Source: SAR202 cluster bacterium Casp-Chloro-G4 (GTDB lineage Bacteria > Chloroflexota > Dehalococcoidia > Lucifugimonadales > JADFKI01). From it: a stretch of DNA of 64,000 bases. Each line of letters starts with the position of its first letter. Position 1 is the stretch's first letter. Shown here piece by piece: positions 6,609 to 48,677 of the stretch. The stretch covers positions 1 through 64,000 of the forward strand of contig MUCK01000021.1 of assembly GCA_002816705.1 (NCBI GenBank). The letters run 5' to 3'. The position numbers were made by a program, and so were the translations under genes. The notes under the pieces were generated by a model. The model made no database searches, was not told where the DNA came from, and saw only the letters and a list, made by a program, of their open reading frames with translations.

Positions 6609-7670
6609 TTACGGAACGACTTCGATTCTCATCCCGCCCAACGAATCCTTTTGAAGAATCTCGCCGACCACCGCCCGCGTCTCCACACCGGCAATTTCCA
6701 ACTCTCGCAGCAGATCGTCCTTTTTGGACGCTGCCACGGAGATGAGCAGCCCGCCGGAGGTCTGCGCATCGGCCAAGAGAATTCGGCTAAGATCATCCAC
6801 CTCTGGATGCCAGGCGACCACGCCTTCGAGCGATTCCAGGTTGCGATGGGTGCCGCCGGGGGCGATGCCCGCCTCCAGTAGCTCCTTCACGCCGTCGATG
6901 ACTGGCACGTCGCCAAGTCGAATCCTGGCGCAGACGTCGCTTCCCAGCACAATGCCTCGCAGGTGACCAAGCAAGCCGAACCCTGTAACGTCGGTGCAGG
7001 CATGTGGTCCTACTTTGACCATGGCCTCAGCAGCAGCCTTGTTTAGCGTAGCCATATGCTTCACGGCGGTGGCCAGCACCTCCGCAGATACGCGTTCCTG
7101 CTTGCCCGCCGTGGTGATGATTCCGGTGCCTATGGGTTTGGTCAGCACCAGTACGTCGCCAGGCTTGGCCCCCGCGTTGGTGACCTCTTCGCCGGGCCGC
7201 ACCACGCCAGTGACAGCCATGCCGTATTTAGGCTCTTTGTCGTCCACGGTGTGCCCGCCGACTATGAGCACTCCGGCCTCGGTTGCTTTGGACGCGCCGC
7301 CCTTTAGAATCTCGCCCAGGATTTCGTGGGGGAGGTCCACCGGGAAGCCCACCACGTTTAAGCCAAATATTGGCTTGCCGCCCATAGCATAAACGTCACT
7401 CAGGGCGTTGGCGACCGCCACTTCTCCGAATACGAACGGGTCGTCTACTATTGGCGGGAAGAAGTCCACAGTGGATATGATTGCCATGTCGTCGTTCATC
7501 TTGTACACGGCGGCGTCGTCTCCGGTGGAAATGCCCACTAGCAGGTTGGGATCTGTTATTGCTGGTAGCTGCCGCAGCACCTGCGACAGGTCCTTAGGAC
7601 TGAATTTAGAGGCTCAACCGGCGCAGCTGGCCAGCTCCGTCAGCCTGATATTTTCATGAACATGTGCCAT
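6609..7670 (-). CDS. selD: Selenide, water dikinase, selenocysteine-containing (in-frame UGA)
   Basis: Makes selenophosphate from selenide and ATP, the Se donor for Sec-tRNA. 353 aa when read from ATG 7670 through the TGA at 7614-7616 as Sec19. The N-terminus reads IRLTELASCAG-Sec-ASKFSPKDL, matching the family pattern G.G(C/U).xK: Sec19 takes the Cys17 position of E. coli SelD and Lys22 matches catalytic Lys20. Downstream are GDDAAVY, DAQTSGGLL and the rest of the PurM-like ATP-grasp-free fold. The start is supported by AGAGGAG 8 nt upstream of ATG. A UGA-as-stop reading would leave only a GTG start at 7580 and delete both catalytic residues. Lies 77 nt after the hydantoinase gene on the same strand, so may be co-transcribed. 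Sec decoding is inferred from frame and conservation, and supported by selA and tRNA-Sec in this window. Confidence 0.93.
7579..7591 (-). promoter_or_regulatory. Candidate bacterial SECIS stem-loop in selD
   Basis: Minus strand ACCTG-TCG-CAGGT, a 5-bp stem with 3-nt loop beginning 22 nt after the UGA, within the distance at which SelB-bound SECIS hairpins occur inside coding sequence. An alternative small stem (GCTG-CGG-CAGC) follows immediately. The structure is short and I have not folded it; treat it as a candidate only. Confidence 0.4.
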
Positions 7671-7747
7671 GTCAAAGGCTCCTCTACGTAGTGTATTTCG
7701 ATAAGTTCGGCTTAATGGCCGATGTGTGGACAAAGTATAGCAGACGG

Positions 7748-9199
7748 CTATTTTATCCTGTGGCCGTTGGGTGCCCATGTGGCCAACTCGCTCTTGCCGG
7801 GCAGGAACTGAGCTCTGCCTCTGGGGCGCTTTAGCTCGCCGTCTTCAATAATTACCTCACCGCGCTGCATGGAGAAAACGGCCTTGCCAAGAATCTCCTT
7901 GCCTTCGAACATCGTGAAGTCGGCATTGGTGTGCTGATGCTCTGCGCTTAGTGTGTGGGCCAGCGTTGGGTCGAACAGCACGATGTCCGCGTCAGACCCG
8001 GGCAGCAGCGCTCCCTTCTTTGGGTATAGGCCGAATATCTTGGCCGGGTTCTCGCACATGACTTGGACCAGCCTTGGCAGCGTTATGCGCCCCTTGTTAA
8101 CGCCTTCCTGGTACGCCACAGACAGCATCTGCTCGCACCAGTTGCCGCCGAAGGTAGCCTCAAAGATGCTTAGGTCGTCGCCGGACTCGATCTCGCTAAG
8201 CGCGCTACTGACGCTCTGGCCTCCCTGATATTTCTGGGCTTTCTTGAAACCGCAGAAGTCGCTGGCTATGGTGTCCAACAGGTGGAGGCCTATGCCTTTC
8301 CACATTGCCTCGTTGTCTTCCTTTTCCCGCAGCGGTGGGCCTATCTTCGCCAGGGCCCCGTGGTCCAGCATGGACTGGTTCGTAAGGTCCAGATATTGTG
8401 GGCAGGTCTCCCCGTATAGCCGCAAGTCCCCACCCTTAAAGTGGTCCAACGTGTTCAGCATCTCCCTGGCGCTGATGTGCACTATATACAGAGGACAGTC
8501 AGTCACGCTGGCATAGGTGGCCGCGCGGTTGGCCGCTTCCAGCTCAAGAATCCTGGGCTGGGACGGCGCGTACCACTCACGTCCCGTTCGACCCTCGGCC
8601 ACCGACTTGTCCATCAGGTGGTCGATGCAGTAGCCGTTCTCTGCGTGCACCATGGCCATGCCGCCGTCTTTCGAGGCTATATCCATGGCCTGAAGCATCT
8701 TATCGTCAGGCATCATAATGCCCCGCCTGGGATAAGTCATGAACATCTTGAAGGAGATGACGCCCATTTTGATTAATCTGGGCACCTGGTCTTCCACATC
8801 GTCGTCGCCAACAAGAATCGCGTGGATGCTGTAGTCCAACCGGGAGTCCCGTTGTGCCTCGTCCATGAAAGCCTCGATGGACTGTATTGTGGTCTCTTCA
8901 ATGCCCACGTCCCGTCGGTTCCTTATGAAGGGAATGATAGTCGTGACGCCGCCGAAGGCTGCACTCTCTGAGAAGGTGTCCACTCGGTCCGCGTTAACAG
9001 GGTGGTTGTGGGCGTCTATGATGCCAGGCAAGACGTACTTGCCCGTCGCGTCGATGATCCGAGCAGCAGGCTGGTCGGACAGGTCTGGCCCCATTCGCTG
9101 GATAACCTCGTCCTTAACCAGAACGTCCTGCCTGCTTATGCCGTCACCAGTGATTACCAGCCCGCCCTTTATGAGGTAGTCGGCCTGCTGAGTTGTCAT
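7748..9199 (-). CDS. Dihydropyrimidinase / D-hydantoinase-family amidohydrolase
   Basis: 483 aa cyclic-amide hydrolase of the amidohydrolase superfamily. Seen: the metal motif DAHNHP in VLPGIIDAHNHP, the bridging Lys region ISFKMFMTYP, HAEN, the metal His in YIVHISA, and the Asp of IASDFCGF. C-terminal beta-sandwich with PGSDADIVLFDP, typical of hydantoinase, dihydropyrimidinase and allantoinase. Substrate cannot be told from sequence. Start ATG 9199 follows AGGAGAA by 6 nt; the longer frame to 9217 lies before this site. The catalytic-Asp segment is SDFCGF rather than the common DHCPF type, so substrate may be unusual. Confidence 0.88.
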   Translation of the reverse strand: MTTQQADYLIKGGLVITGDGISRQDVLVKDEVIQRMGPDLSDQPAARIIDATGKYVLPGIIDAHNHPVNADRVDTFSESAAFGGVTTIIPFIRNRRDVGIEETTIQSIEAFMDEAQRDSRLDYSIHAILVGDDDVEDQVPRLIKMGVISFKMFMTYPRRGIMMPDDKMLQAMDIASKDGGMAMVHAENGYCIDHLMDKSVAEGRTGREWYAPSQPRILELEAANRAATYASVTDCPLYIVHISAREMLNTLDHFKGGDLRLYGETCPQYLDLTNQSMLDHGALAKIGPPLREKEDNEAMWKGIGLHLLDTIASDFCGFKKAQKYQGGQSVSSALSEIESGDDLSIFEATFGGNWCEQMLSVAYQEGVNKGRITLPRLVQVMCENPAKIFGLYPKKGALLPGSDADIVLFDPTLAHTLSAEHQHTNADFTMFEGKEILGKAVFSMQRGEVIIEDGELKRPRGRAQFLPGKSELATWAPNGHRIK

Positions 9200-9524
9200 G
9201 TCATTTCTCCTAGTCAATCTTGTCTGGGTATCTTAACTTCCCCAATAAAACTGTCAAGTAATTTCTGATAATCCGCGTCTGGGCATGAGGAAAATCAGCT
9301 ATGAATGGGACGTGATACTGGCATCTAAATGGCGTCGCCCTTGAGCTTTCTTTTCGCCTCTGGGATGGCCATTTCCCCATTCATCCAAAACAGGTAGAAT
9401 TGGGGCATCCAAATCCAGGAAATTGCTGCACATCCTATAACCGTCAAATGTAATGGAATTTGAAATATCGGCGGCATCTCAAGCTTGCTGCTGCATCGTG
9501 TGAACAAAAAGGGAGAACGAAAGA
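9200..9524. other. Divergent intergenic region
   Basis: 325 bases between the divergent hydantoinase and metallo-beta-lactamase genes, more AT-rich than the flanks. It should hold both promoters. A 60-codon minus-strand frame (9325-9507) starts at TTG without a ribosome binding site and I do not believe it. No clear repeat or hairpin is seen. Confidence 0.5.
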
Positions 9525-10331
9525 ATGGCAGATCATAAACTTACCGTAGGCAACGTGGAAGTGGTGTCTGTGCTGGACGGCTACTCGGCCAGGAGAGTCC
9601 CCACCGAGACGTTCCCTGGAAGCACCATCGAGGGCTGGCGGGAGTTCCCAGACATCCTGGACGAGAATGATCAGATACAGTCCAGGTACGGCTCCGTAGC
9701 CTTGCGTTCCCAGGGCAAGCTAATCATCGTGGACACGGGCATGCAGACCGATCCCGGCGGGAGACTGCCGGACGACATGAAGGCCAAGGGTGTCGATCGT
9801 GAAGCCGTCGACATCGTGTTCCTGACACACCTGCACCCCGACCATGTGGGCTGGAACCTGACCGACGGCCGACCAACGTTCCCAAACGCGCGCTACTTGG
9901 CACCCCGCTCCGACTACGAGTACTGGAGCCAGCCGGACGTCCTTGCCAACGCCGCGCACGTGCAAAACCAGGTCATGCCGCTCAACGACCTTAAGCTCAT
10001 AGACCTGGTGGAGGAGGAGTACAAGATCACCGGCGAGATTACCACGGTGTCGACTCCCGGCCACACGCCGGGCCACTTCTCGCTAATAATCGCTTCGGCG
10101 GGGGAGAGGGCATTCATTCTGGGTGATGTGGCCCATAGCCCTGCCCAGGCGCACTATACCGACTGGAACCCGATGTTCGACATTCAGCAGGACATTTCCA
10201 GGGCGACGCGACATAAGGTGCTGGACCAGCTGGAGGCCGAGGGCACGCTGGTTTCGTCCGGTCACTTCCCGGACCCAGGCTTTGGCCACTTCGCCAGAGT
10301 CGAAGGCCGTCGCGTGTGGAAGGCCCTTTAA
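9525..10331 (+). CDS. Metallo-beta-lactamase-fold hydrolase (lactonase-like)
   Basis: 268 aa. Binuclear Zn motif HLHPDH gives His102, His104, Asp106 and His107; downstream ligands are His in STPGHTPGH and Asp in ILGDVAH, with a final His in SSGHFPDPGFGH. The overall layout (VDTGMQTD before the motif, long alpha/beta insert) is that of the N-acyl-homoserine-lactonase/alkylsulfatase-like branch of the superfamily; substrate unknown. Start ATG follows AGGGAGAACGAAAG. Its last 16 nt overlap the next gene, so the two are probably one transcript. Confidence 0.88.
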   Translation: MADHKLTVGNVEVVSVLDGYSARRVPTETFPGSTIEGWREFPDILDENDQIQSRYGSVALRSQGKLIIVDTGMQTDPGGRLPDDMKAKGVDREAVDIVFLTHLHPDHVGWNLTDGRPTFPNARYLAPRSDYEYWSQPDVLANAAHVQNQVMPLNDLKLIDLVEEEYKITGEITTVSTPGHTPGHFSLIIASAGERAFILGDVAHSPAQAHYTDWNPMFDIQQDISRATRHKVLDQLEAEGTLVSSGHFPDPGFGHFARVEGRRVWKAL

Positions 10332-11334: not shown

Positions 11335-11721
11335 TTACTCCTCGAACTCGTCCAGCCAGGCGCGTTTGAACACGCCGTAACGAGGCCCGTCCTTATCGCC
11401 CATGGGGACGATGTTCACCAGCTCCCAACCCTTGTCGCCCATGCGATTAAGCATGTGCTCGTTGTAGATCCTGGTCTGTTCAAGGATGTCGTCGTCGTTA
11501 GGCCCCTGGTCGTTTGCGTGACCCATCAGCTTGATCACCTCATACTCCCAGGTGGGCAAGCCTTCTATAGGGTCGAAGTCCTCGATGTAGTCCAGTTGGG
11601 TAACGTCTTCATCGGAAACGTCTGCCCAGCTGTCCTTGGGGATAGGCGCTTGGCACTCTAGACAGAGATCCGCATTGCCGAAGTCGTAGGCCCCGCATTC
11701 GGAGCAGAAGTAAAGTTTCAT
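11335..11721 (-). CDS. Zinc-ribbon protein with DUF4177-like C-terminus
   Basis: 128 aa from ATG 11721. Residues 1-27 form a zinc ribbon (CSECGAYDF...CLECQAP, Cys-x2-Cys twice). An acidic spacer follows (DVSDEDVTQLDYIEDFDP). The C-terminal half reads WEYEVIKL... GWELVNIVP... YGVFKRAW, the pattern of DUF4177-type small beta-sheet domains. No membrane segment. The open frame extends to 11859 but the added 46 residues are low in similarity to anything; no strong ribosome binding site decides. Function unknown; nucleic acid or protein binding through the ribbon is possible. Confidence 0.7.
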   Translation of the reverse strand: MKLYFCSECGAYDFGNADLCLECQAPIPKDSWADVSDEDVTQLDYIEDFDPIEGLPTWEYEVIKLMGHANDQGPNDDDILEQTRIYNEHMLNRMGDKGWELVNIVPMGDKDGPRYGVFKRAWLDEFEE

Positions 11722-11988
11722 AAGTTTGTTATCGGCGCTTTGACTATTAGCTATCTGGGGAATAAACCGGTTGAAGGACTGGGAAACAGTATTTAATCCG
11801 TACCCTGGTATATTGCCTGTTTGGTTACTTCGATTATAGGTGGGTGTGAATGAATTCACAACGACAATTGAACCTTAGGGCAACTCGCTGTGGGACAGGT
11901 CCGAACTTATTTATGCCGTATCTTGGGACTTTGCGAGGCGGAGTTAGGCTAAATTGCTTAACGAAAAATGAGGGCATCGGCGCCCTTG

Positions 11989-13272
11989 TCAGGCCTCGCT
12001 GGCAGGCCTTGTTGGGGCAGGGGGAGGGGAGGCGGGCGTCCGCACTGTCATAAGACTAATGATAGCGACTATTGATAACGCTCCTGTCACTGAAAATGCC
12101 AGGCCCCACCTTATGGCCTCTGGCGACAGGTCCAGGATCGCGCCAACGACGATGGGGCCGATCACGCCCCCGGTGAATCCCAAGAACGAATGCACCGCTA
12201 ATGTGGAGCCGAGTTTGGAAGGCTCCGAGACCTCGGTTACGGCTGTGGAGTATATTGCCGAGTCTGCCGCTATGGCCCAACCGTATAACGCCGTCAGGCC
12301 TATGATGACCGGCCATGGGAAGCCAATGAGCCAGCCTATGGCGAAGGAGACCGCGCCGCTAAGGGCGAAGATAACTGAAGCGGAAGCCGCGCGTCCCCAC
12401 CTGTCTGAGAGTATGCCGCCTACGACAGGCCCAGCCGCAGCAGTCGCCAGGGCAATGCCGCCCACGGTGGCTGCGGTGATGGCTGCTTCAGCACTGTCCA
12501 CGCCTTTGGCAACCAGCACGACCACTAGAAATGCGGGCAGCCATACGCGAACGATGTAAAGCTCGGCGGCGTGCAGGGAGTAGCCCAGTATGAATATACG
12601 CGTTGCCCGATTTTTGAGGACCGAAAGGTCAAGCGCACCTGATGAGCCTCCGCCTTCCGGAGCCTTATGTGAGCGGAGCAGCAGGTAGGCCATAGGAACA
12701 CTCAATGCCGCCAGTAATGCCATGACCATGTAGGCGTCTCGCCACTCCAGATGCGCCATGAGTACGCCCGTGAGGGCTAGGGATACGCTGTTTGACGCAT
12801 AAAAGAATGTAACGTACGTACCCACCGCCATGCCTCGCCCGTTGTTTGCAAAGCGCTCCGCCACGACACGCATACCTGGATTGTAGACGCCCACCAGTCC
12901 CAGACCTGCCAGCACGCGAAGCACTACAGCCGTCACCAGGTTGTCGGCGAATATCGGGAACAGGATATGGGATACCACTGAAATTGAGGCGAAACATATC
13001 AGTATATATTTGGAGCTGAACCTGTCGGTGAGAGGTAGTACGAACAGGGCCGACACGGCGAAGCCAGCCAGGTATGCTGAGAAGATGAAGCCAGCCTGGG
13101 TATTGTTCAGGCCCCACTCTTCTTTAATCAACGGCAGGGCGGCCACGTAGCTGGAGAAGGGAAAGAGCAGTACGAAGAGCATGCTGGACATCGCCAGCAA
13201 CCAGGCCGCGTCTCTGGCCTGAATGCCACCCAGCCATCGTATTTCAGGAGTCGCTTTCGTTGCCTGCTCCAT
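11989..13272 (-). CDS. Major facilitator superfamily transporter
   Basis: 427 aa with about 12 hydrophobic helices. The first loop carries the MFS motif between helices 2 and 3 (LPLTDRFSSKYI) and a repeat of it appears in the second half (GGILSDRWGRAAS). Resembles the CynX/NNP or general sugar-phosphate/anion-type MFS, but substrate cannot be assigned. Followed in the same direction, upstream by 46 nt, by the TPR lipoprotein gene. Confidence 0.88.
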   Translation of the reverse strand: MEQATKATPEIRWLGGIQARDAAWLLAMSSMLFVLLFPFSSYVAALPLIKEEWGLNNTQAGFIFSAYLAGFAVSALFVLPLTDRFSSKYILICFASISVVSHILFPIFADNLVTAVVLRVLAGLGLVGVYNPGMRVVAERFANNGRGMAVGTYVTFFYASNSVSLALTGVLMAHLEWRDAYMVMALLAALSVPMAYLLLRSHKAPEGGGSSGALDLSVLKNRATRIFILGYSLHAAELYIVRVWLPAFLVVVLVAKGVDSAEAAITAATVGGIALATAAAGPVVGGILSDRWGRAASASVIFALSGAVSFAIGWLIGFPWPVIIGLTALYGWAIAADSAIYSTAVTEVSEPSKLGSTLAVHSFLGFTGGVIGPIVVGAILDLSPEAIRWGLAFSVTGALSIVAIISLMTVRTPASPPPAPTRPASEA

Positions 13273-13319
13273 TTACATCAGGTCTCCGTACGCCTGGGGT
13301 TGCGCGTGGCCCATCCTCA

Positions 13320-13967
13320 CTACCGAAGCAGCGATAGGAACTGCTTTGCCGCTAGTATCATGGCCTCGTCATCTGTCAGGCTCAGTACCTGTTCCAGGTC
13401 GGGCACAGCCTTCGTGGGGTCTTCAGACTGTAAGTACACCCGAGCCCTGAGCAGGTACAGTTCAGGGGTTTTAGGCGTCAACGAGATTGCAGTCGTAAGG
13501 TCGTTGGCGGACAGGCCAAGCTCGCCCGTTGTCAGGTATACACCAGCCCTATTCACGTACGGCTCGCGCAGGTTGGGATCCAGCTGAATGGCCCTCGTAA
13601 AATCTATCAGAGCGTTGTCTATATCCTTCCGCTCGACGAAAACCAGCCCCCGGTAGTTATAGACGATGGCCAACTGCGGGTCCAGCTTTATGGCCCTGCC
13701 CAGGTCTTCCAAGGCGAATCCCTCGTCTCCAAGCAGGTGGTATAGGAAGCCTCGTTCGGCGTAGGCCTCCGCCAAATTGGGGTCCAGCCGTATGGCCTCG
13801 GTAAGCTCGTCGTAGGCCCGCTTCATCAGGCCTTGACGACGCAAATCTACCCCGTGGTCCAGGGCGTCCAAGGCATCCAACTCGTCGGTGGTGACGGGCG
13901 TTCCGCCGCATGCCATGGCCAGCGCAAGGGCAACGGCGACCAGCGTAACGAAGAGAGCGTTGCTCAT
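13320..13967 (-). CDS. TPR-repeat lipoprotein
   Basis: 215 aa. Signal peptide with lipobox ALAMAC (Cys20). The mature part is four to five TPR units of 34 residues, each with the A..(D/G)L..AI.LDP signature (AIRLDPNLAEAYAERG, AIKLDPQLAIVYNYRG, AIQLDPNLREPYVNRA, AISLTPKTPELYLLRA). TPR lipoproteins serve as membrane-attached protein-protein scaffolds. Partner unknown. Same strand and 47 nt upstream of the MFS gene. Confidence 0.85.
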   Translation of the reverse strand: MSNALFVTLVAVALALAMACGGTPVTTDELDALDALDHGVDLRRQGLMKRAYDELTEAIRLDPNLAEAYAERGFLYHLLGDEGFALEDLGRAIKLDPQLAIVYNYRGLVFVERKDIDNALIDFTRAIQLDPNLREPYVNRAGVYLTTGELGLSANDLTTAISLTPKTPELYLLRARVYLQSEDPTKAVPDLEQVLSLTDDEAMILAAKQFLSLLR

Positions 13968-14021
13968 GGCATCATGTTAACAGAGGCCTGGGCGTGCAAG
14001 CGCTCTTTTTTATGCCAGGGA

Positions 14022-15578
14022 TTAACCCTTACCCTCACGAATCCAGTCCGCGACTCGCTCGGCGATCATAATGGTGGTGGCGTTGGTGTTTGCACGAATC
14101 ACGTCAGGCATTATGGACGCATCGACTACTCGCAAGCCCTCCATGCCGTGGACCCTGCCATACTGGTCCACAACGGCCATGGGGTCTGAAGCCGGCCCCA
14201 TCTTGCATGTGCCGGAGGAGTGGTGCTGGGTGCCGACGTTCTCCATGATCCACTTGTCCAGGTCGGCGTCCGACTCCAGGATGTCCGTGGAAGGGGCTAT
14301 GCGCTCGACAATCACGTCCTGGTATTCGGGACGCTCGGCGACATCTGCAGCCAGACGCAGCGCGCCTCGCATTCGTTCTCGATCCCAGGCATCGCTCAGG
14401 TAGTTGTAATTCAGCACGGGCTGGTCCCGGGGATCGCTGGACGCAAGACGCAGGGTTCCCGCCGTGACGGCCTTCTGTATTGCCACGCTGATGCCGGTGA
14501 ACGTTCCCTCTTCGTCTCCGGCGAATCCAGGAGGACGATGCTCGCTGGTCATAAGCAGTGGGGACATCTGCATGTCGTTGCGGAACTTCGAGTTCGGCGT
14601 GGTGTACCGCATGCCTACCTGAATCGACGGCGTGAACGTATCCATGTCTTCCATAGTTGTCCTGAAAGGCATGAAGACCGCCGGGTGGTCCCTCAAGTTC
14701 TCTCCTATCCCGGGTAGCTCGTGTACAACGTCGATTCCTACGGATGCGAGGTGCTCTGCCGGGCCAACTCCGGACAGCATTAGCGTCTGGGGTGAGTTGA
14801 TGGCTCCTGCGCTGAGTATGATCTCGCCCGCCTCAATGCGGAACGCCTCGCCTCCGCTCTCGGCCTCGATACCTACCGCCTTCTTGCCTTCGAAAAGTAT
14901 TCGTCTGACCATCACGTCGCCTCGAATGGTCAGGTTCAGGCGGTGGCGCGCGGTGGTAAGGTAGGTCAACGCCGTGCTCATGCGTATGCCATCTATGTTG
15001 TTCAATGGCCGAGGGCTCAGGCCAGTGGCATCCGGATGGTTGGCGTCCATGGCCTCAGGGAAGCCCATGCCGATACATGCATTCCAAAAGGCCTGGGCCG
15101 AAGGGATCATGTCCTCTTTTTCGTAGCGACGCACCGGTATGGGACCGTCCCCGCCGTGGAAGTCGTCTGAGCCGAAGGTCAGGTCTGTCTCGCACTTTCG
15201 GAAATAAGGCAGGCAGTCCACGAAAGACCACTCGGTGTTTCCCAACTCTGCCCATTCGTCGTAGTCTTCCGGAATGCCTCTGAAGAAGACCTGTCCGTTT
15301 ATCGAGCTTGAACCGCCAATCACCTTACCCCTGGGAATGATGATGGGCTCTCGTCCTTCCGTGGCCTGGGCTTCGTAATTCCAGGAGTGGGCATCGGGGC
15401 CGTACGCCGAAAACCAGGGGTTGTTGCCCTGCTTAACGTCCTCCGGCATATGATCGATGTCGGGGTAGTCCGGACCTGCCTCCAGCAGCAGAACGGAGCG
15501 CTCAGGGTCCTCGGTCAGGCGTGTTGCCAGCACAGACCCTGCGGAGCCGGCGCCAATGATGATGTAGTCGTACCGCAC
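14022..15578 (-). CDS. GMC-family FAD-dependent oxidoreductase (choline dehydrogenase-like)
   Basis: 518 aa. N-terminal FAD-binding Rossmann motif YIIIGAGSAGSVLA and LLLEAGPD, GMC signature 1 around PRGKVIGGSSSINGQVFFRG, signature 2 GAINSPQTLMLSGVGP, and C-terminal active-site region QHHSSGTCKMG with catalytic His, then VVDASIMPDVIRANTNATTIMIAE. Oxidises an alcohol; choline, PEG and many other alcohols are substrates in this family, so the substrate is left open. No signal peptide. Monocistronic by spacing. Confidence 0.92.
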   Translation of the reverse strand: MRYDYIIIGAGSAGSVLATRLTEDPERSVLLLEAGPDYPDIDHMPEDVKQGNNPWFSAYGPDAHSWNYEAQATEGREPIIIPRGKVIGGSSSINGQVFFRGIPEDYDEWAELGNTEWSFVDCLPYFRKCETDLTFGSDDFHGGDGPIPVRRYEKEDMIPSAQAFWNACIGMGFPEAMDANHPDATGLSPRPLNNIDGIRMSTALTYLTTARHRLNLTIRGDVMVRRILFEGKKAVGIEAESGGEAFRIEAGEIILSAGAINSPQTLMLSGVGPAEHLASVGIDVVHELPGIGENLRDHPAVFMPFRTTMEDMDTFTPSIQVGMRYTTPNSKFRNDMQMSPLLMTSEHRPPGFAGDEEGTFTGISVAIQKAVTAGTLRLASSDPRDQPVLNYNYLSDAWDRERMRGALRLAADVAERPEYQDVIVERIAPSTDILESDADLDKWIMENVGTQHHSSGTCKMGPASDPMAVVDQYGRVHGMEGLRVVDASIMPDVIRANTNATTIMIAERVADWIREGKG

Positions 15579-23930: not shown

Positions 23931-25151
23931 ATGCTCTTAGTCTTTCGAAATGCCCGGTTCCGCCTGCTGTGGATAAGCGTAATCATCAACTACGTTGGCC
24001 TGATGACGTACTTCACGGTGCACGGTTGGCTTGCCCTTACCGTAAGCGATTCGGCATTCTGGGTAGGCGCAACTGCTGGAGTTAGCGGGCTGGGACTCAT
24101 GGGATGCAGCGTCGTATCCGGCGTGCTGGTGGACAGGCTTAACCGCAAGAAGCTGATCATTGCCGCGCAGCTAGCTCAGGCCACGATGGCTCTGACCCTG
24201 GCGGTTCTGATCTTTACCGATCAGGTGGTGCTTTGGCACGTGATGCTGGTGGCGTTTCTCGACGGCACCTTCATGGCCATAAAAATCCCGTCGCGGTTTG
24301 CGCTGGTTCTGGATGTGGCAGGCCGCGAGAACTTGCTGAAGGGCACTGCCGCCAACTTCGCCGCCATGACGATGATGGGCATAGCAATTCCGCCTTTGGC
24401 CGGGTATATCGTTGGCGCGCACGACATAGCATGGGCCTACGTTATGATGAGCAGCGCCTTTGTCGTTTCCGCCATCGTCCTGGCGTTCCTTAGCGGCGTC
24501 ACGCCCATAGTGCGCGCACGCATATCCTCTCCTCTGCAAGACTTGAAGCAGGGCTTTCGCTACGCCATCACAACGCCCCAGGTGAGGGCTTTGCTACTGC
24601 TTACGCTTACGTCTGAAGCCTTCGGGTGGGCCCACGAGACGATGCTGCCTGTCATGGCGGGCAAGGTGCTGGAGGCTGGACCTCAAGGGCTGGGATACCT
24701 GCTGTCAGCAGGCAGCGCGGGCGCGCTGGTCTCCACGCTGACAATGTCCAGCATGGGCGATATCAAGAATAAGGGCAGGGTGCTGATAGTGGGCTACATG
24801 GGATTCGGTTTTTTCTTGATCATGTTCTCCCAGTCGCCCTGGCTACCGCTGTCCATGTTACTAATCGGTTTGGCCTACGCCAGCGTGGCGGTGTACGAGA
24901 CGACAGTTAGCACCTTGTTGCAGACCTCAGTCCCCGACGAGATGCGCGGGCGGGTGCTTAGCTTGCAGTCGCTTACCTGGGGCTTTACAGGCGCGTCAGG
25001 ATTTCACACCGGAGCCATAGCAGCACTGGTGGGAGCGCCGCTGGCCATCTCCATAGGCGGTGGCATGCTCATCCTGAACGGCCTGCGTATGGTCCGCGGG
25101 ATTGCCAGCCGATTCCAAGAGGCGCAGGTGGAGCCAGCGACCGGCGACTGA
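23931..25151 (+). CDS. Major facilitator superfamily transporter (enterobactin-exporter-like)
   Basis: 406 aa with about 11-12 helices. Reads like MFS_3/EntS-type exporters: FRNARFRLLWIS at the start, GVLVDRLNRKKLI between helices 2 and 3, PDEMRGRVLSLQSL in the second half. Exported compound unknown. ATG 23931 has AAAGG 4 nt upstream. Alone between a terminator and convergent small genes. Confidence 0.87.
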   Translation: MLLVFRNARFRLLWISVIINYVGLMTYFTVHGWLALTVSDSAFWVGATAGVSGLGLMGCSVVSGVLVDRLNRKKLIIAAQLAQATMALTLAVLIFTDQVVLWHVMLVAFLDGTFMAIKIPSRFALVLDVAGRENLLKGTAANFAAMTMMGIAIPPLAGYIVGAHDIAWAYVMMSSAFVVSAIVLAFLSGVTPIVRARISSPLQDLKQGFRYAITTPQVRALLLLTLTSEAFGWAHETMLPVMAGKVLEAGPQGLGYLLSAGSAGALVSTLTMSSMGDIKNKGRVLIVGYMGFGFFLIMFSQSPWLPLSMLLIGLAYASVAVYETTVSTLLQTSVPDEMRGRVLSLQSLTWGFTGASGFHTGAIAALVGAPLAISIGGGMLILNGLRMVRGIASRFQEAQVEPATGD

Positions 25152-25167
25152 GGCCGCAGCACTACGA

Positions 25168-25383
25168 TTATACGGACGTACAGAAAACTACTGAGGTACT
25201 CGGTCCGCGTTGTTGACGATTACTTCTGATGGGGCTTCTCCGAGGCCCTGCCTCCGCATTCAAGGTCAGTGGCTCATCATCTCGCTCATGGCCCTGGTTA
25301 TAGGGGATGCTTTTCGTCGCTATGGCGACTAGCATTCCACCTAGTATTGCGCCGCCAAGTACTGATGCAAGATACCTTTTCAT
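25168..25383 (-). CDS. Small membrane protein, hypothetical
   Basis: 71 aa from ATG 25383. One N-terminal hydrophobic helix rich in Gly (VLGGAILGGMLVAIA) followed by a polar, Arg-rich tail. No family recognised. It begins 13 nt after the stop codon of the SHOCT gene on the same strand, which is the main support; coding status is uncertain. Confidence 0.45.
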   Translation of the reverse strand: MKRYLASVLGGAILGGMLVAIATKSIPYNQGHERDDEPLTLNAEAGPRRSPIRSNRQQRGPSTSVVFCTSV

Positions 25384-25396
25384 TTCGGGCCTGCCT

Positions 25397-25648
25397 TTAT
25401 GCGTGCCTGATTCCTCCCCGGAGAGAGTCCTGCAACTCCTCAAACTGCTCGGTGGTAATCTCGCCACGAGCAAGTCTTAACCGGAGAATATCCATTGGGG
25501 TCTCTCCGGAATCTGGGGGCGTATTCTTGGAGCTAACGAGTTTGGAGACTCCCCATATACCCAGTCCTATTACCGCGACCCAGAACAGCATCATGCCCAT
25601 GCCAAAAAACGGCATCCACCACTGAAATCCTTGCTGAAAACCCCACAT
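25397..25648 (-). CDS. Small membrane protein with SHOCT domain
   Basis: 83 aa. An aromatic N-terminus (WGFQQGFQWWMPFFGMG), one transmembrane helix (about 18-40), a short linker, and a C-terminal SHOCT motif (ILRLRLARGEITTEQFEEL). SHOCT modules are short two-helix tails common at the ends of membrane or PH-like proteins. Function unknown. Confidence 0.8.
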   Translation of the reverse strand: MWGFQQGFQWWMPFFGMGMMLFWVAVIGLGIWGVSKLVSSKNTPPDSGETPMDILRLRLARGEITTEQFEELQDSLRGGIRHA

Positions 25649-25832
25649 TACCTGCTCCTTCGTGCCCTCGGAGTCATATCTGTATCGGAAGTTCGGCCTG
25701 TTTTAGACTCCGCCAGATGGCGCATTAGCCTAACATCAATTCTCGTCGGTTTGGTATGAAGGAATCATGAGGAAACCGACAAATGCATGAAGATGTCGTG
25801 AAATTCAGGGAATCAGAGGCAAGTTCCTTGAA

Positions 25833-25916
25833 ATGCGCCGCCACTACATAGAGCGCTGCACCGAACGCTTCGCCCCGCCCATGACCGAAGAGGAGGAGCG
25901 AAAGCTTGCGGCGTAG
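25833..25916 (+). pseudogene. Short coding remnant (27 codons)
   Basis: An in-frame stretch from ATG to TAG reading RRHYIERCTERFAPP then MTEEEERKLAA, preceded in the same frame by GIRGKFLEM. The composition is protein-like and matches the GC of the chromosome rather than the adjacent AT-rich gene. It looks like the preserved C-terminal tail of a lost gene, but I cannot name the parent. It could also be a real microprotein. Confidence 0.35.
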
Positions 25917-25973
25917 GGCTGCACGGGGGCGAAGTGGTCAGTGGTTACACATGATGGCCGATCGAGGTTGTGT

Positions 25974-26735
25974 TTACTCGCTGCAATCATTGGGCAATAG
26001 ATAATGTGGCAGAATCGGACTGTTAGCTGTCAGCATGATCGTAGAAAGCCACATCAAATGATCAAAGGCAACTGAGTTCGATCGGTATGATTGCCAACCT
26101 GGAAGTGCTTCCCCTTGCTCATCGACGAGATGAAGTGTACCGCTACCATCGCCGTAGTCAATAACAGAGCCCCTGTCCATAACAAAAATTCCATCGAGAA
26201 TTTCGTTTGAAGAAACGGAATTGTCCGACATGTAGCCTTCAACGGACCCTTTTATCGCGTCGAGGCTAACCTGAGATTCAAAGGCAAATATGAACCAAGG
26301 CGGATGACCTAAGAATCTTGAGCTATCATCGCCATTTGACATCAGTATTCCTGTAAAAGGAGCGGCCTGTAACTGTTTGAATCGGCGGGATTTATCGATG
26401 GATTCGGTCAATTCGGTACTTGTCAAATTTGTCTTAATCTCTCCTGCTGCTGATATGCCTTCTATGAAGAATAGACCGGGCTGGTCAGGTGTGAACGTAA
26501 ATGGATGGTCTTCGGTTACGACCACAACGTCGGTTTGTGCCGAAGTATTGCCGTGGCTGTCGATTATCTCCCCATGGCCAATCTCTAGCCTCCGAGGGAG
26601 GTAATCGCGTAAAAATCTGCGAAATGTTTTCTCGACAGATTCTCCTTTGTTTCCGGCATGGTTGAAGGTAGCTCGCACCTCTTCGAGCCGGGCCTTCATC
26701 TGTTTCTCTACCGCATCTATCTTGTCTTTCATCAT
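25974..26735 (-). CDS. DUF6602-type protein, possible PD-(D/E)XK nuclease fold
   Basis: 253 aa. An N-terminal helix (residues 1-25) is followed by NKGESVEKTFRRFLRDYLP, then GHGEIIDSHG, QTDVVVV and AAGEIKTNL. The Asp of TDVVVV and the Glu-x-Lys of GEIKT have the spacing and strand context of a PD-(D/E)XK nuclease core, which is my inference; the N-terminal half matches DUF6602 as I know it. Codon use is more AT-rich than the flanking genes and the surrounding 1 kb is sparse, consistent with recent acquisition. Proteins of this type are found as strays near restriction or other defence genes; none is seen nearby. Not a demonstrated nuclease. Confidence 0.65.
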   Translation of the reverse strand: MMKDKIDAVEKQMKARLEEVRATFNHAGNKGESVEKTFRRFLRDYLPRRLEIGHGEIIDSHGNTSAQTDVVVVTEDHPFTFTPDQPGLFFIEGISAAGEIKTNLTSTELTESIDKSRRFKQLQAAPFTGILMSNGDDSSRFLGHPPWFIFAFESQVSLDAIKGSVEGYMSDNSVSSNEILDGIFVMDRGSVIDYGDGSGTLHLVDEQGEALPGWQSYRSNSVAFDHLMWLSTIMLTANSPILPHYLLPNDCSE

Positions 26736-26756
26736 GGGAATACCCTCAATTCATCG

Positions 26757-28091
26757 TTAGTGGTCTCTATTCCCATCCCCCCACCAGCGCTTCAATCTTT
26801 CCGCCACCTCGGGTTCGTAGCCCTGGTCGCCGGGGTTGTAGTAGCGGCGGCCCTTGATGCTCTCGGGCAGGTTCTGCATGGGTGCGAAGTTGTCCTCGTA
26901 GTCGTGGGAGTACTTGTAGCCGTCGCCGTAGCCCATGTCCTTCATCAGGCCCGTGGGGGCGTTGCGCAGGTGCATGGGAACCGGGTCGTTGCGCGTCTGC
27001 TGCACGTCCTCCATAGCCTTGTTTAGCGCCATGTACGAGGCGTTGCTCTTGGGAGCGGTGGCCAGGTAAACCGTTGCCTCCGCCAGGGGAATGCGGCCCT
27101 CCGGCAGGCCAATCAGGTGGTACGCCTGCTGCGCGGCCATTGCCACCGACAGCGCCCGAGGGTCCGCCATGCCAACGTCCTCCGCCGCCAGGATGACCAG
27201 ACGCCGTGCGATGAACATGGGGTCCTCGCCGGCCTCCAGCATGCGTGCCAGGTAGTAGACGGCCGCGTCCGGGTCCGAGCCGCGCACCGACTTTATGAAG
27301 GCAGATATGGTGTCGTAGTGCTGGTCGCCGCCCTTGTCGTAGCGCAGTGATCGTTGTTGCATGGCATCCTGTATCACCCCGACCGTGATCTTGCGGACAC
27401 CCTGGGCGTCGGGATTCGTGGCCGCCGTAGATAGCTCCAGGGCGTTGAGGGCCGTGCGTGCGTCGCCGTTGGCTAAATTTACGAGAAGGGCTGTGGCATC
27501 CTCGTCCAGCAGAGGTTTGAGGTGAGCCAGGCCCCGCTGAGGCGTTGCAACCGCTTGGGAGATAATCTGAGAAATCTCATCGTCGGTCAGCGATTGCAGG
27601 GCGAAGACCCTGGCACGGGACAGCAGGGGAGACACCACCTCGAAGGAGGGGTTCTCAGTCGTCGCGCCGATGAGCACAAAAGTGCCTTCCTCCACGAAGG
27701 GCAGTATCACGTCCTGCTGTGCCTTGTTGAAGCGATGAATCTCGTCAACGAACAGCACGGTGCGCTGGCCGTGCATGCCCAGGCGCTCCCGGGCCTCGCC
27801 TGCGATGCGTCGTAAGTCGGCCACACCTGACGCCACGCCGCTGACCCTCTCGAACTGGCTCTTCGTTGCCGTGGCGATGAGGTTGGCCAGCGTAGTCTTC
27901 CCCGTGCCCGGAGGCCCCCAGAGGATTATGGAGGGGAGTTGGTCGGACTCGATGCTGCGTCGCAAGACGGTTTCGGGGCCAATGATGTGCTGCTGCCCCA
28001 CGTACTCGTCGAAGGTGCTAGGTCGCATCCTGGCAGCCAGAGGGGCCCTGCTCTGCAACTCGCGTTGGCTTTGGTGTTCGAAAAGCGTCAT
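26757..28091 (-). CDS. rarA: Replication-associated recombination protein A (RarA/MgsA AAA ATPase)
   Basis: 444 aa from ATG 28091. Acts at stalled replication forks. MRPSTFDEYVGQQH, Walker A GPPGTGKTT, Walker B FVDEIHRFNK, sensor GATTENPSF and Arg finger region SRARVF, followed by the C-terminal tetramerisation domain (HYDTISAFIKSVRGSDPDAA, YLARMLEAGEDP, LVILAAEDVG). The same frame stays open to 29099, but the added sequence is the antisense-phase shadow of the TauE-like gene and contains nothing recognisable. Length is normal for RarA. Confidence 0.95.
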   Translation of the reverse strand: MTLFEHQSQRELQSRAPLAARMRPSTFDEYVGQQHIIGPETVLRRSIESDQLPSIILWGPPGTGKTTLANLIATATKSQFERVSGVASGVADLRRIAGEARERLGMHGQRTVLFVDEIHRFNKAQQDVILPFVEEGTFVLIGATTENPSFEVVSPLLSRARVFALQSLTDDEISQIISQAVATPQRGLAHLKPLLDEDATALLVNLANGDARTALNALELSTAATNPDAQGVRKITVGVIQDAMQQRSLRYDKGGDQHYDTISAFIKSVRGSDPDAAVYYLARMLEAGEDPMFIARRLVILAAEDVGMADPRALSVAMAAQQAYHLIGLPEGRIPLAEATVYLATAPKSNASYMALNKAMEDVQQTRNDPVPMHLRNAPTGLMKDMGYGDGYKYSHDYEDNFAPMQNLPESIKGRRYYNPGDQGYEPEVAERLKRWWGDGNRDH

Positions 28092-28207
28092 TTCTGATGT
28101 CCTTAATGATATGTCTAACTGACCTGAGTGTAGCGAAAGCGGCGGCATAGGGGTAGGGGCGGGTTTCGCGGTAGCCTGAACCGTCGCCGTCCCCAGGTTG
28201 CAAACGA

Positions 28208-29134
28208 TTACAGTGAGACTACGCTCCTGAAAATCATGACAGAACTCATCAGCGCGAACATGAGCAACAGCGCGATTTTTAGCGTGCGCTCGGGGCAGCG
28301 GGCCGAGATGTGTGGTGCGATCTGACCGCCTATTATCACGCCAGGAACCGCCAGTATGACCAGCGTCCACTCGAAGGCTACGGTGCTGCCAGAGACGCTG
28401 GCCACCACCAGATGCGTCAGCGATCCGGCCAGTACTGTCGCCGAGACCACGATTACGGTTGTGGCTACGGCAACCCTGGCTGGCATGTCGTGCCGAACAA
28501 TTAGCGTCGTGGTGACTATCGCCCCGACGCCCACGCCTATGAGGCCCACCAGCGCTCCGCCAGCCCCGGTGTAGGCACGGTCCCGCCAATTGAATCGGGC
28601 GAGGTAGCTGTACTTGCGACCGTCCCGGGCCATGATTTCGGAATTCGCATTTTCGCGAGAAGCTAACGGGGAGGCGACCGTTGAGGCTACGCCGGGGCGA
28701 TTGATGTTTCGTTCGGTCCCGCGACGAACAATGATCGATCTGAGAACTGTAAACGCCAGCAGAAGCAGCACCGAGCCGAAGACTATGAAAAGCAGCCATG
28801 AAGGGATCAGGAATGACACGGACCTGGCTAAGATGGCGCATGGAATCGTGATGATCAGCAGCCTCGCCGCCAGACGAAAATCCACCACGCGCTGGCGGAC
28901 ATATCCCATGCTGGCGCTGGCGGTGCCGAAGAACATGATGAGCAGGGAAACGCCGATGGCTTCGTTGGGCGTTAGCTGAGGGAAGGTGCCGCTTAACGCA
29001 GGAAACAGCAGCAGGAAGGCTGGCGCGAACATGACTGCGCCTTCCATGGCCAGTGTGTTGGCGGTGATAGCGATGCCCAGGGATGCAGGCAGCACCCACC
29101 AGATGGCCAGTACGTTCGAGGTAAAATCGCCCAT
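28208..29134 (-). CDS. TauE/SafE-family sulfite exporter-like permease
   Basis: 308 aa with about eight hydrophobic helices in two halves split by a polar loop (residues 145-195). The second half begins GAGGALVGLIGVGVGAI, the repeat typical of TauE/SafE. The family moves sulfite, sulfoacetate or other organo-sulfur anions across the membrane; substrate not known here. Ends 116 nt upstream of rarA on the same strand. Confidence 0.85.
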   Translation of the reverse strand: MGDFTSNVLAIWWVLPASLGIAITANTLAMEGAVMFAPAFLLLFPALSGTFPQLTPNEAIGVSLLIMFFGTASASMGYVRQRVVDFRLAARLLIITIPCAILARSVSFLIPSWLLFIVFGSVLLLLAFTVLRSIIVRRGTERNINRPGVASTVASPLASRENANSEIMARDGRKYSYLARFNWRDRAYTGAGGALVGLIGVGVGAIVTTTLIVRHDMPARVAVATTVIVVSATVLAGSLTHLVVASVSGSTVAFEWTLVILAVPGVIIGGQIAPHISARCPERTLKIALLLMFALMSSVMIFRSVVSL

Positions 29135-29293: not shown

Positions 29294-29593
29294 TTATTTG
29301 AGGTCCGCGATGGTAACGCCGCCGTTGCCCTCACTGGGTGCCGCCGGATGGTGTCGAACGACCAGTGGGTGCTTGGTCAGGAAATCACGGACGGCCTCCC
29401 GCATAGTTCCCGTGCCTTTGCCGTGGATGACCCGAACCCAGGGGTAGCCCGCAATCACGGCGTCGTTCAGGTACCTGTCCAGCTTTTCCAGGGCCTGGCG
29501 AACGGGCATGCGGCGTAGATGAACCTCGGTCTCCACCGAGAGTTGGCTTAGTAAACGGGACTGTGGCTGGTCTTTCCTTGGCTTGGGATTCAT
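29294..29593 (-). CDS. Smr-domain protein
   Basis: 99 aa. Consists mainly of a Smr (small MutS-related) domain: VHLRRMPVRQALEKLDRYL, then the core VRVIHGKGTGTMREAVRDFL and a final IADL. Here the usual DLHG..v.EA opening is changed to VHLRRMPVRQA. Smr domains nick or bind branched DNA or RNA. The ATG overlaps the selA stop as ATGA, so it is translationally coupled to selA. This pairing may be incidental. Confidence 0.85.
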   Translation of the reverse strand: MNPKPRKDQPQSRLLSQLSVETEVHLRRMPVRQALEKLDRYLNDAVIAGYPWVRVIHGKGTGTMREAVRDFLTKHPLVVRHHPAAPSEGNGGVTIADLK

Positions 29594-30993
29594 GAGCCAA
29601 CCAGCGCATTGGAGACGACCGCAAGCAGGGCGTCTTCCTCCTCGGGCAGGACAGTTCGAGGGTCTAGCAGCACGCGCTCGTCCTCGATGCGGCCAATTAC
29701 CGGGGTGTCGCCCTCTCGCAAAGCCTTGGCCAGAGCCTCAGCGCCGCCAGTCCTGTTGCGACAGTCGATCGCCAACGCCCATGAGTCGATGGTCTCTCCC
29801 GGCAGGCTGCCCCCGCCTATGGTGGACATGGCCTTTTCTACGGATGCGGCACCGCCTATTCTGGCCTGCCAGCGCTCAGCTTTGGCAGCGGCCTCGCTCT
29901 CTGACATGGAGATCATTCGCCAGATGGGCACCTTATCCACTGCCTCGCCCTTGATGTAGTGGAGGACTGTCGCCGCCAGGGCCGCCATGCTCATCTTGTC
30001 GATGCGCACCGCTCGGGCCAGCGGGTGCCGCGCCACGATGTCTATAAGCTCGCGCTTCCCCGCGATGATGCCCGCCTGAGGGCCACCAAGCAGCTTGTCG
30101 CCTGAGAAGAAGCCCAGCCCGACGCCCGCCTGAACGCTCTCCTGGGGCATAGGCTCGTGGGCAATGCCGTATGCCGCCGTGTCCAGCAGGCAACCGCTGC
30201 CAAGGTCGTGCAGCACAGTGACACCACGTTGTGCGCCTAGCTCTACTAACTCGGCTAACTCAGGCGCGTGGGTGAAGCCCATGACACGAAAATTGCTTGC
30301 GTGAACGGCCAGTATCGCGCCGGTGTTCTCCGTGATTGCAGCCTCGAAGTCGCGGGCGTAGGTGCGGTTGGTGGTGCCAACCTCGACTAGCGTAGCGCCG
30401 CTCTGACGCAGCACGTCCGGAACGCGAAAGCCGCCGCCGATCTCCACAGCCTCGCCCCGCGAGACTATGACCTCCTTGCCAACGGCCAGCGCCGCCAGCC
30501 CCAGCATGAGAGCGGAGGCGTTGTTGTTTACCACTAGGGCTGCCTCGGCGCCCGTGACCTCTGCCATCAGGTTGGATATGTGCGCCTGCCGGGAGCCGCG
30601 CCTGCCGGTATTCAGGTCCAATTCCAGGTCGCTATAGCCCAGGGCTGCGCGTCGGGCGGCGTCGGTGGCCTCCTGGCTCAATGGAGCGCGTCCCAGGTTT
30701 GTGTGCAGTATGACGCCAGTGGCGTTAATGACGTGGGTGGGCCACTCTCGCCAGTTGGTCTCGGCGCTCTCCTCGATGGCCTGCACCAGCCTGTCGAAGT
30801 CTGGCGCAGCGTACCCATCAAGGATAGTCTGGCGGGCTGCGTCGATTTCCGAGCGCACAAGGTCTACCACGACCTTTCGGGAGTATTTTTGGACCAGCAT
30901 TTCCACGCGGTCGTCGGAGAGGACTTTTTCGACGCTGGGAAGAGACTTAAATTTTGAGGTCATCTTTTGAGGTCTCGAGCTTTCTGAATTCAT
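29590..30993 (-). CDS. selA: L-seryl-tRNA(Sec) selenium transferase
   Basis: 467 aa PLP enzyme turning Ser-tRNA(Sec) into Sec-tRNA(Sec) with selenophosphate. LPSVEKVLSDD at the start, the strongly conserved INATGVILHTNLGRAPLS, NNNASALML, and the PLP Lys300 in FFSGDKLLGGPQAG. Start ATG 30993 has GGGAGA 9 nt upstream and a TATAAT at 31009-31014 (minus). An internal ATG at 30963 is nearer the family start but has no ribosome binding site; the open frame reaches 31128. Works with selD (6609) and tRNA-Sec (48580) in this window. Confidence 0.96.
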   Translation of the reverse strand: MNSESSRPQKMTSKFKSLPSVEKVLSDDRVEMLVQKYSRKVVVDLVRSEIDAARQTILDGYAAPDFDRLVQAIEESAETNWREWPTHVINATGVILHTNLGRAPLSQEATDAARRAALGYSDLELDLNTGRRGSRQAHISNLMAEVTGAEAALVVNNNASALMLGLAALAVGKEVIVSRGEAVEIGGGFRVPDVLRQSGATLVEVGTTNRTYARDFEAAITENTGAILAVHASNFRVMGFTHAPELAELVELGAQRGVTVLHDLGSGCLLDTAAYGIAHEPMPQESVQAGVGLGFFSGDKLLGGPQAGIIAGKRELIDIVARHPLARAVRIDKMSMAALAATVLHYIKGEAVDKVPIWRMISMSESEAAAKAERWQARIGGAASVEKAMSTIGGGSLPGETIDSWALAIDCRNRTGGAEALAKALREGDTPVIGRIEDERVLLDPRTVLPEEEDALLAVVSNALVGS

Positions 30994-31140
30994 ATTGCTG
31001 CTCTCCCTATTATAACCCTGTCTCCTCAATTCACCTTCGCCACTATTTACGTAAGTGACCAACAGCGTAAACATCAGTTGTGTTGACCCTATTTCGGCTG
31101 CTTGATAGAATGGGTTGAATTTGCCCAATGACAGGAATTT

Positions 31141-48579: not shown

Positions 48580-48677
48580 GGGGGCGAATGCGCTCCGGTG
48601 GGTACCACGGACTTCAAATCCGATGGTCCGGGCCCTGCGGTTCGGACGGTGGGTTCGACTCCCTCTCGCTCCCGCCA
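48580..48677 (+). tRNA. selC: tRNA-Sec, anticodon TCA, CCA encoded
   Basis: 98 nt including CCA. 8-bp acceptor (GGGGGCGA with TCGCTCCC, one G-U), the D-arm region GCGCTCCGGTGGGTAC, anticodon loop CTTCAAA on a GC-rich stem, a long variable arm of 9 bp with tetraloop (GTCCGGGCC CTGC GGTTCGGAC), T loop TTCGACT and discriminator G before CCA. The long acceptor, long variable arm and TCA anticodon identify it. The T stem has one T-T mismatch and the anticodon stem an A-A at its outer pair. Read together with selA and selD. Confidence 0.93.

Follow-up and report, generated by a model that had tools for sequence, protein, structure and literature searches.

A 253-residue protein of the DUF6602 family, encoded between two host genes of a SAR202 cluster bacterium, is a predicted PD-(D/E)XK nuclease on a branch of its family that lies outside the nuclease NucC. 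Our preferred reading, to which we give about even chances, is that its gene is inserted cargo of this non-NucC branch and that the product is probably a conditional antiphage DNase. Taken alone, the window gene is of modest weight, being cargo of the defence type in a variable position; the part worth following is the family picture, in which one cyclase-bound clade stands among many cyclase-free lineages, some of them beside restriction genes.

The gene lies at positions 25974–26735 on the reverse strand of the window, by which we mean the whole stretch of 64,000 nucleotides analysed. The earlier note had assigned it to DUF6602 and seen in it a Glu-x-Lys and an Asp resembling a nuclease core, and both observations are supported. 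Against Pfam, the protein matches DUF6602 (PF20247) with an E value of 2.2e-24 and 85.8 bits, compared to a cut-off of 27, over profile positions 2–104 of 104, and is thus a member by score of a family to which Pfam assigns no function; the only other Pfam match is a KID repeat at E 0.31, an NCBIfam search gave no match, and PHROGs gave weak matches to two families of unknown function, the better at 1.4e-5. The PADLOC models PD_DExK (2e-31) and NucC (3.4e-15) also match it, and in a sequence search of the PDB all five hits with E < 1e-6 are NucC entries (Serratia, Pseudomonas, two from E. coli, and Vibrio), aligned within residues 7–123; PDB 6q1h, which the Foldseek listing names NucC, is labelled ORF C62 in this search. 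The predicted metal-binding D69 (codon at 26529–26531, reverse strand) and the predicted catalytic E99 and K101 (codons of E99-I-K101 at 26433–26441, reverse strand) align with D73, E104 and K106 of Chloroflexota NucC. In a 63-row alignment of the family, the predicted catalytic Asp is found in 17 of 17 NucC-clade rows and 40 of 46 others, and the catalytic Glu and Lys are each present in 40 of the 46 rows outside the NucC clade. In the open papers searched, we found no reported activity for any non-NucC DUF6602 protein and no mention of DUF6602.

An AlphaFold model built from a 7-row alignment (pTM 0.59, mean pLDDT 54), usable but weak, replaced a single-sequence structure prediction with a mean pLDDT of 36. 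In this model strand 68–73 carries D69, and the following long strand, 94–104, carries both E99 and K101. Foldseek gave 14 hits under 1e-3, every one of them NucC, and VIA-align places NucC first with a Z score of 12.1 over 191 residues, followed by type II restriction enzymes with Z up to 7.5. As two of the seven alignment rows are themselves NucC, the match to the NucC fold is not independent and speaks for consistency only; NucC being a PD-(D/E)XK enzyme, the fold assignment suggested earlier is borne out to that extent. We regard the protein, from its sequence and this model, as a probable DNA-cutting enzyme with a predicted PD-(D/E)XK fold.

The nuclease gene is part of a stretch that separates two host genes, an MFS transporter gene on its left (23931–25151, forward strand) and rarA on its right (26757–28091, reverse strand, 444 residues). 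A search of 21 genomes, the window's own among them, found rarA in every one and the MFS gene in 19. Seven relatives (G003, G004, G006, G007, G008, G009 and G012) have the two genes convergent on one contig with 58–215 bp between their matched ends, compared to 1605 bp in the window; the gap is 869 bp in an eighth relative, G019. The earlier note had proposed an insertion of shifted composition around an AT-rich gene, and this stands: the DUF6602 gene has the lowest GC content (0.469) of the 47 ORFs of at least 150 residues in the window (mean 0.567, s.d. 0.029), as well as the lowest GC3, and in the k-mer scan that the note called for its tetranucleotide profile is farther from that of the window than any other 762-base stretch, sampled every 250 bases. 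There is one copy of the gene in the window's genome assembly, and it is not conserved in place across the lineage: of the seven other family genomes (G001–G007), only G003 has a DUF6602 match, distant and elsewhere, and an order-wide search at E 1e-6 found any match in 14 of 250 genomes, the window's own counted. To judge from these sequence comparisons, the gene looks horizontally acquired.

Within the inserted stretch there are also a short membrane protein with a SHOCT-like end (25397–25648, reverse strand; SHOCT E 4.3e-5, 23.5 bits with a cut-off of 27), for which blastn and tblastx gave no match in the relatives' stretches compared, a small ORF between it and the MFS gene (25168–25473, reverse strand), and a gene remnant (25800–25916, forward strand), the 3' end of a small gene, whose frame terminates in GKFLEMRRHYIERCTERFAPPMTEEEERKLAA and a stop codon. 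This small coding remnant, already noticed in the letters, is real: 47 bp of it (25813–25859) are 83% identical to the 3' part of a 67-residue gene that is intact after the MFS gene in the congener G001, and the motif GKFLEMRR is common to both. In G001 the contigs break at the rarA/MFS site; the MFS gene is followed by two small frames that by eye are ParD/RelE-like, a repeated MFS-gene end and the 67-residue gene (L074 2268–3390, G001:C189), and the rarA side carries a different reading frame. This arrangement, together with a remnant in the window from a gene of the G001 type, makes the rarA/MFS spot variable in the genus. By eye, the middle of the small ORF at 25168–25473 (reverse strand), MKRYLASVLGGAILGGMLVAIATKS, resembles the N-terminus of the 67-residue gene of G001, with a DNA alignment at chance level only. 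An Rfam search of 25100–28300 gave no match. The insert holds one direct and one inverted 18-nucleotide repeat pair (each 83%), neither of which is located at the insertion ends; promoter-like sites around it are at chance level (2 found against 1.7 expected), and 5 terminator-like sites were found compared to 2.3 expected (s.d. 1.4).

Two alternative explanations bear on this setting. The first is that the gene is decaying cargo with no present function, as the earlier note had in part suggested from the same surroundings. It adjoins a gene remnant at a variable spot, occurs in a single genome and has no partner that we found, whereas its reading frame is intact over 253 codons, the catalytic residues are present, and GAGGG (26743–26747, reverse strand), a likely ribosome-binding site between the rarA stop and the DUF6602 start, sits seven bases ahead of the start codon. 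The insertion and the gene remnant hold, decay of the nuclease gene itself is not supported, and we consider loss of function fairly improbable. The second alternative is a repair nuclease that works with RarA at stalled forks, in line with the interest that the fork-repair neighbour had attracted. The DUF6602 gene starts 21 bp past the end of rarA on the same strand, and the two genes could be co-transcribed. Yet rarA is in 21 of 21 genomes and a DUF6602 match in only 14 of 250 of the order, the MFS gene is the usual neighbour of rarA in close relatives, and a rarA match lies near DUF6602, within the stretch examined, at one of 54 loci, that of the window itself. The adjacency looks incidental, and we find this explanation extremely unlikely.

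The closest characterized comparison for our preferred reading, an inserted nuclease of a non-NucC branch, is NucC itself, the cA3-activated nuclease of CBASS and type III CRISPR and as such a second-messenger effector. With NucC (PDB 6q1h, 6p7o, 7zgv, 6uxf) the window protein has in common the N-terminal PD-(D/E)XK part, the Asp and Glu-x-Lys set and the predicted fold, whereas its C-terminal half is unlike, and the lid motif and the conserved C-terminal Thr are lacking. NucC models cover it only at positions 8–129 of 244 and 19–132 of 243, compared to a match that extends to 236–242 in seven of seven control proteins of the NucC clade. The lid HAGG, the Tyr of DRQY, the C-terminal Thr (T226) and R53 are what we take to be parts of the cA3 pocket of NucC. 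Over the lid columns H136, A137, G138 and G139, the NucC residue is kept in 12, 15, 14 and 16 of 17 NucC-clade rows, and the window protein has Leu, Met, Ser and Leu. In the T226 column, Thr stands in all 17 NucC-clade rows and in 5 of the 46 others, against a gap in the window protein, which also lacks the Tyr found in 15 of the 17 rows. It retains Arg in the R53 column, and this residue speaks mildly for a NucC-like site. Together with the kinship and the common catalytic set, the retained Arg is what favours a true NucC here, a trimer activated by cA3 from a cyclase elsewhere in the genome; the truncated model matches, the altered lid and T226 columns, a position outside the NucC clade and the lack of any SMODS or Cas10 palm match in the 67%-complete genome, where SMODS is a profile that scores some true cases weakly (L125), make it very unlikely.

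To place the gene among its relatives, we compiled 54 Chloroflexota loci, 53 besides that of the window, by searching 400 genomes of the phylum and 250 of the order, and left out a match with a stop inside (G215:C39). Sequence motifs divided them into 12 NucC-like loci, including L028, which was added by its full-length NucC match, and 42 others. A CD-NTase-like gene lies beside 9 of the 12 NucC-like loci and 0 of the 42 others (Fisher P = 4e-8), although several of the cyclase queries are the loci's own genes and phmmer can miss divergent genes, as it missed the hsdS of L165. Seven of the nine exceed the Pfam SMODS cut-off (L028, L029, L039, L042, L044, L126 and L129), and L125 and L127 are under it. 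The other NucC-like loci are L031, which by eye has CRISPR-like repeats and genes resembling type III next to it, L030, with a HORMA fragment nearby, and L181, which is solitary. Because 14 of the 54 loci have less than 3 kb on at least one side, absences of neighbour genes are partly blind. By eye, the solitary NucC gene of L181 stands between two near-copies of a response-regulator gene, one of them shortened (7391–7696 and 9011–9697).

Beyond this sample, tblastn matched 112 plasmids and 2 phages, all at less than 60% identity. Among 17 plasmids chosen by hand and opened, 8 fall in the NucC clade and all have a CD-NTase-like gene in the vicinity (3 of 4 tested exceed the Pfam SMODS cut-off), and 9 lie outside it, one of these with hsd genes. 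Degenerate-pattern scans of genome contigs gave nothing with the window protein alone as query and one locus, on G245, with the pair alignment. Scans of viral contigs gave no relative with the pair, a three-row set, L025 alone, or the alignments A6 and A5, five NucC loci with alignment A4, and three loci with a Klebsiella phage protein as query.

TIR-like genes lie near 4 of the 42 non-NucC loci (L165 8306–9007; L131 9114–9749 and 11453–12016; L130 4711–6086; L037 8268–9401) and near 1 of the 12 NucC-like loci. The one in L165 is ThsB-type according to Pfam and PADLOC and sits directly upstream of DUF6602 within an hsd locus. We considered a TIR partner for the family and rejected it: the cases are too few, two of them (L131 and L165) represent a single lineage, and in L037 the gene was recognized by eye and has no match in PADLOC.

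Trees of the proteins agree with the division by neighbours. In a tree of 43 rows, a single group of 17 (support 92/92) contains all 13 that have a cyclase or type III CRISPR as neighbour, and the window protein is among the other 26, none of which carries such a label. It pairs there with L025, an hsdS-linked protein (support 100/99) that is its closest relative at 43–44% identity. A 63-row tree also places the window outside the NucC clade, and the NucC label requires one change on it (SH-aLRT 91), a count that is partly circular because some rows were labelled after the 43-row tree. The neighbour-based label on the 43-row tree is fairer; its 13 rows need 5 changes, because L023, L030, L090 and L098 of the 17-row group had no label, and a SMODS gene was found at L090 on a later check. 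Many branches are long, and the bootstrap had not settled; the 63-row tree was built without L171, L174 and L177–L179 (weak multi-domain matches, five of the 42 non-NucC loci) and without L047, L086, L092 and L096 (4 of the 18 plasmid or phage proteins opened). In this sample, DUF6602 spans NucC and many lineages without an adjoining cyclase.

Some of these lineages are linked to type I restriction. In 6 of the 42 non-NucC loci (L025, L120, L121, L131, L163 and L165) hsd genes abut or overlap the DUF6602 gene, confirmed by Pfam in five; the hsdS fragment of L163, detected by phmmer, has no Pfam match and lies about 40 bp from DUF6602. In L025, the DUF6602 gene follows hsdS, with its start either 10 bp before the end of hsdS or 29 bp past it, an hsdR-like piece directly after DUF6602 and a whole hsdR-like gene at 11365–14517. 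The order in L120 is hsdM, hsdS, a gene of unknown type, DUF6602 and hsdR, with DUF6602 ending 6 bp before hsdR; in L121, hsdS is followed by DUF6602 with an ATGA overlap at the contig end; in L131, DUF6602 is followed by hsdS, again with an ATGA overlap; and L165 runs hsdM, a TIR-like gene, DUF6602 and hsdS, with an ATGA overlap between the last two. L121, L131 and L163 have only hsdS beside the gene (L163 also an hsdR fragment) and no whole operon, and L121 and L163 are near contig ends. Outside the 54 loci, the plasmid L046 carries hsdM, hsdS, hsdR and then DUF6602. Two ORFs at these loci match nothing in Pfam or PADLOC: one after DUF6602 in L025 (2518–3222), with a D...E-x-K pattern by eye, and a 659-residue protein between hsdS and DUF6602 in L120 (6846–8825).

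How often a gene would abut hsd by chance can be given only roughly; from the frequency of N6_Mtase matches (223 of 400 phylum genomes, at most 5 candidates scored per genome) we guessed a background well under 1%. Ignoring relatedness, the binomial P value for 6 of 42 is 4e-6 at a background of 1%, 2e-4 at 2% and 0.017 at 5%; for 5 of 42, leaving out L163, it is 6e-5, 0.0015 and 0.057, so that the link would not stand at 5% without L163. On the 63-row tree, 6 changes are required to explain the hsd-linked rows (the six Chloroflexota loci and plasmid L046); well-supported branches force at least 4 of these, and as 111 of 500 shuffles are as low, the label is scattered and not clustered. Adjacency may also reflect defence islands in general, because in the NucC-like CBASS loci L028, L029 and L126 the NucC gene and hsdM run on one strand, no more than a few tens of bases apart. 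The layout of these three would suit a common transcript for CBASS and type I restriction. We treat the hsd link as a lead, not proof.

Precedent for such a link exists. PrrC is encoded inside a type IC locus and set free once restriction is blocked (PMC12707154, PMC3506569), and the toxin-like domains that Makarova et al. 2012 (PMC3506569) list for type I and III restriction systems include REase-fold nucleases. The general idea of restriction-linked nuclease toxins is thus already in print; in titles and abstract openings of open papers, we found nothing on NucC-like nucleases in hsd operons. Some cousins of the window gene adjoin or overlap hsd genes, much as prrC is found inside the hsd locus of EcoprrI. 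PrrC itself differs in kind, being a tRNA anticodon nuclease, and the window gene has no hsd genes nearby; a Pfam search of the window protein gave no match to the ABC ATPase or HEPN anticodon nuclease of PrrC.

The window protein might accordingly be a PrrC-like guardian, a fail-safe nuclease of type I restriction that is silenced by the Hsd complex and stranded here without its partner. Its nearest relative, L025, directly follows hsdS, the hsd-linked rows are spread by at least four forced changes over the tree, and PrrC offers a model (PMC12707154, PMC3506569). On the other hand, no hsd genes were found in the window's genome, 36 of the 42 non-NucC loci have no hsd gene or cyclase in sight, and NucC-CBASS cassettes abut hsdM as well; we judge this explanation unlikely.

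The window's own genome offers no partner in place. The earlier note had seen no cognate gene beside the nuclease, and we likewise found neither an hsd match nor a CD-NTase-like gene within 10 kb, and no sign at the locus of a cyclase or CRISPR. The assembly, 1.36 Mb in 53 contigs of which C21 contains the window, is 67% complete, and neither N6_Mtase nor Methylase_S has a match in it; the lack of N6_Mtase is a common situation, as only 223 of the 400 phylum genomes have a match. A distant partner may still exist, since a third of the genome is missing. The same assembly appears to encode selenocysteine machinery, with a tRNA-SeC gene (48580–48677, forward strand) and an ORF that is selA-like by eye (29590–31128, reverse strand) in the window.

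These results also bear on a stand-alone restriction enzyme that would cut incoming unmodified DNA directly. Next after NucC, the predicted fold of the window protein resembles the type II enzymes Bse634I, SgrAI and Cfr10I (Z 6.5 to 7.5), and the 36 non-NucC loci with neither hsd gene nor cyclase would suit an enzyme that acts alone. Identity to the three enzymes is however 10–13%, there is no sign of sequence specificity, and no methyltransferase partner was found for the window gene among N6_Mtase and Methylase_S, the two families searched. We regard a stand-alone restriction enzyme as rather unlikely.

We return to the preferred reading, a cargo nuclease of the non-NucC branch that is probably a conditional antiphage DNase. 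A defence role is suggested by the cousins that adjoin restriction-enzyme genes. NucC trimers join into hexamers on cOA3 and cut double-stranded DNA, as described in PMC9704534. The window protein would likewise cut double-stranded DNA with Mg2+, probably as an oligomer, and would stay silent until infection. Its C-terminal half, about residues 125–253, would take a trigger in place of cA3, and the activated enzyme would destroy DNA and stop the phage, possibly along with the cell. Since some cousins have genes that overlap or abut hsd, a type I restriction complex may supply the trigger there, and blocked restriction is, by analogy with PrrC, our best lead for the trigger of the hsd-linked cousins. 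No partner was found for the window nuclease, which would act by itself, rely on a partner encoded in the third of the genome that is missing, or be cargo of no present use.

For the family, a bolder proposal can be made, which we put forward tentatively and consider doubtful: non-NucC DUF6602 proteins would be NucC-like DNases triggered by partners that make no use of cyclic nucleotides, several times independently by type I restriction complexes, with the window protein stranded or self-triggered. If true, a NucC-type DNA-destroying enzyme would serve as a guardian of restriction. The loci described here supply concrete genes for asking how a NucC-type nuclease is controlled without cA3 and whether restriction systems, which maintain the tRNase PrrC as a fail-safe, do the same with DNases; they also present NucC as one clade inside a wider nuclease family, whose outside lineages, in our sample, have no adjoining cyclase and in some cases stand beside restriction genes.
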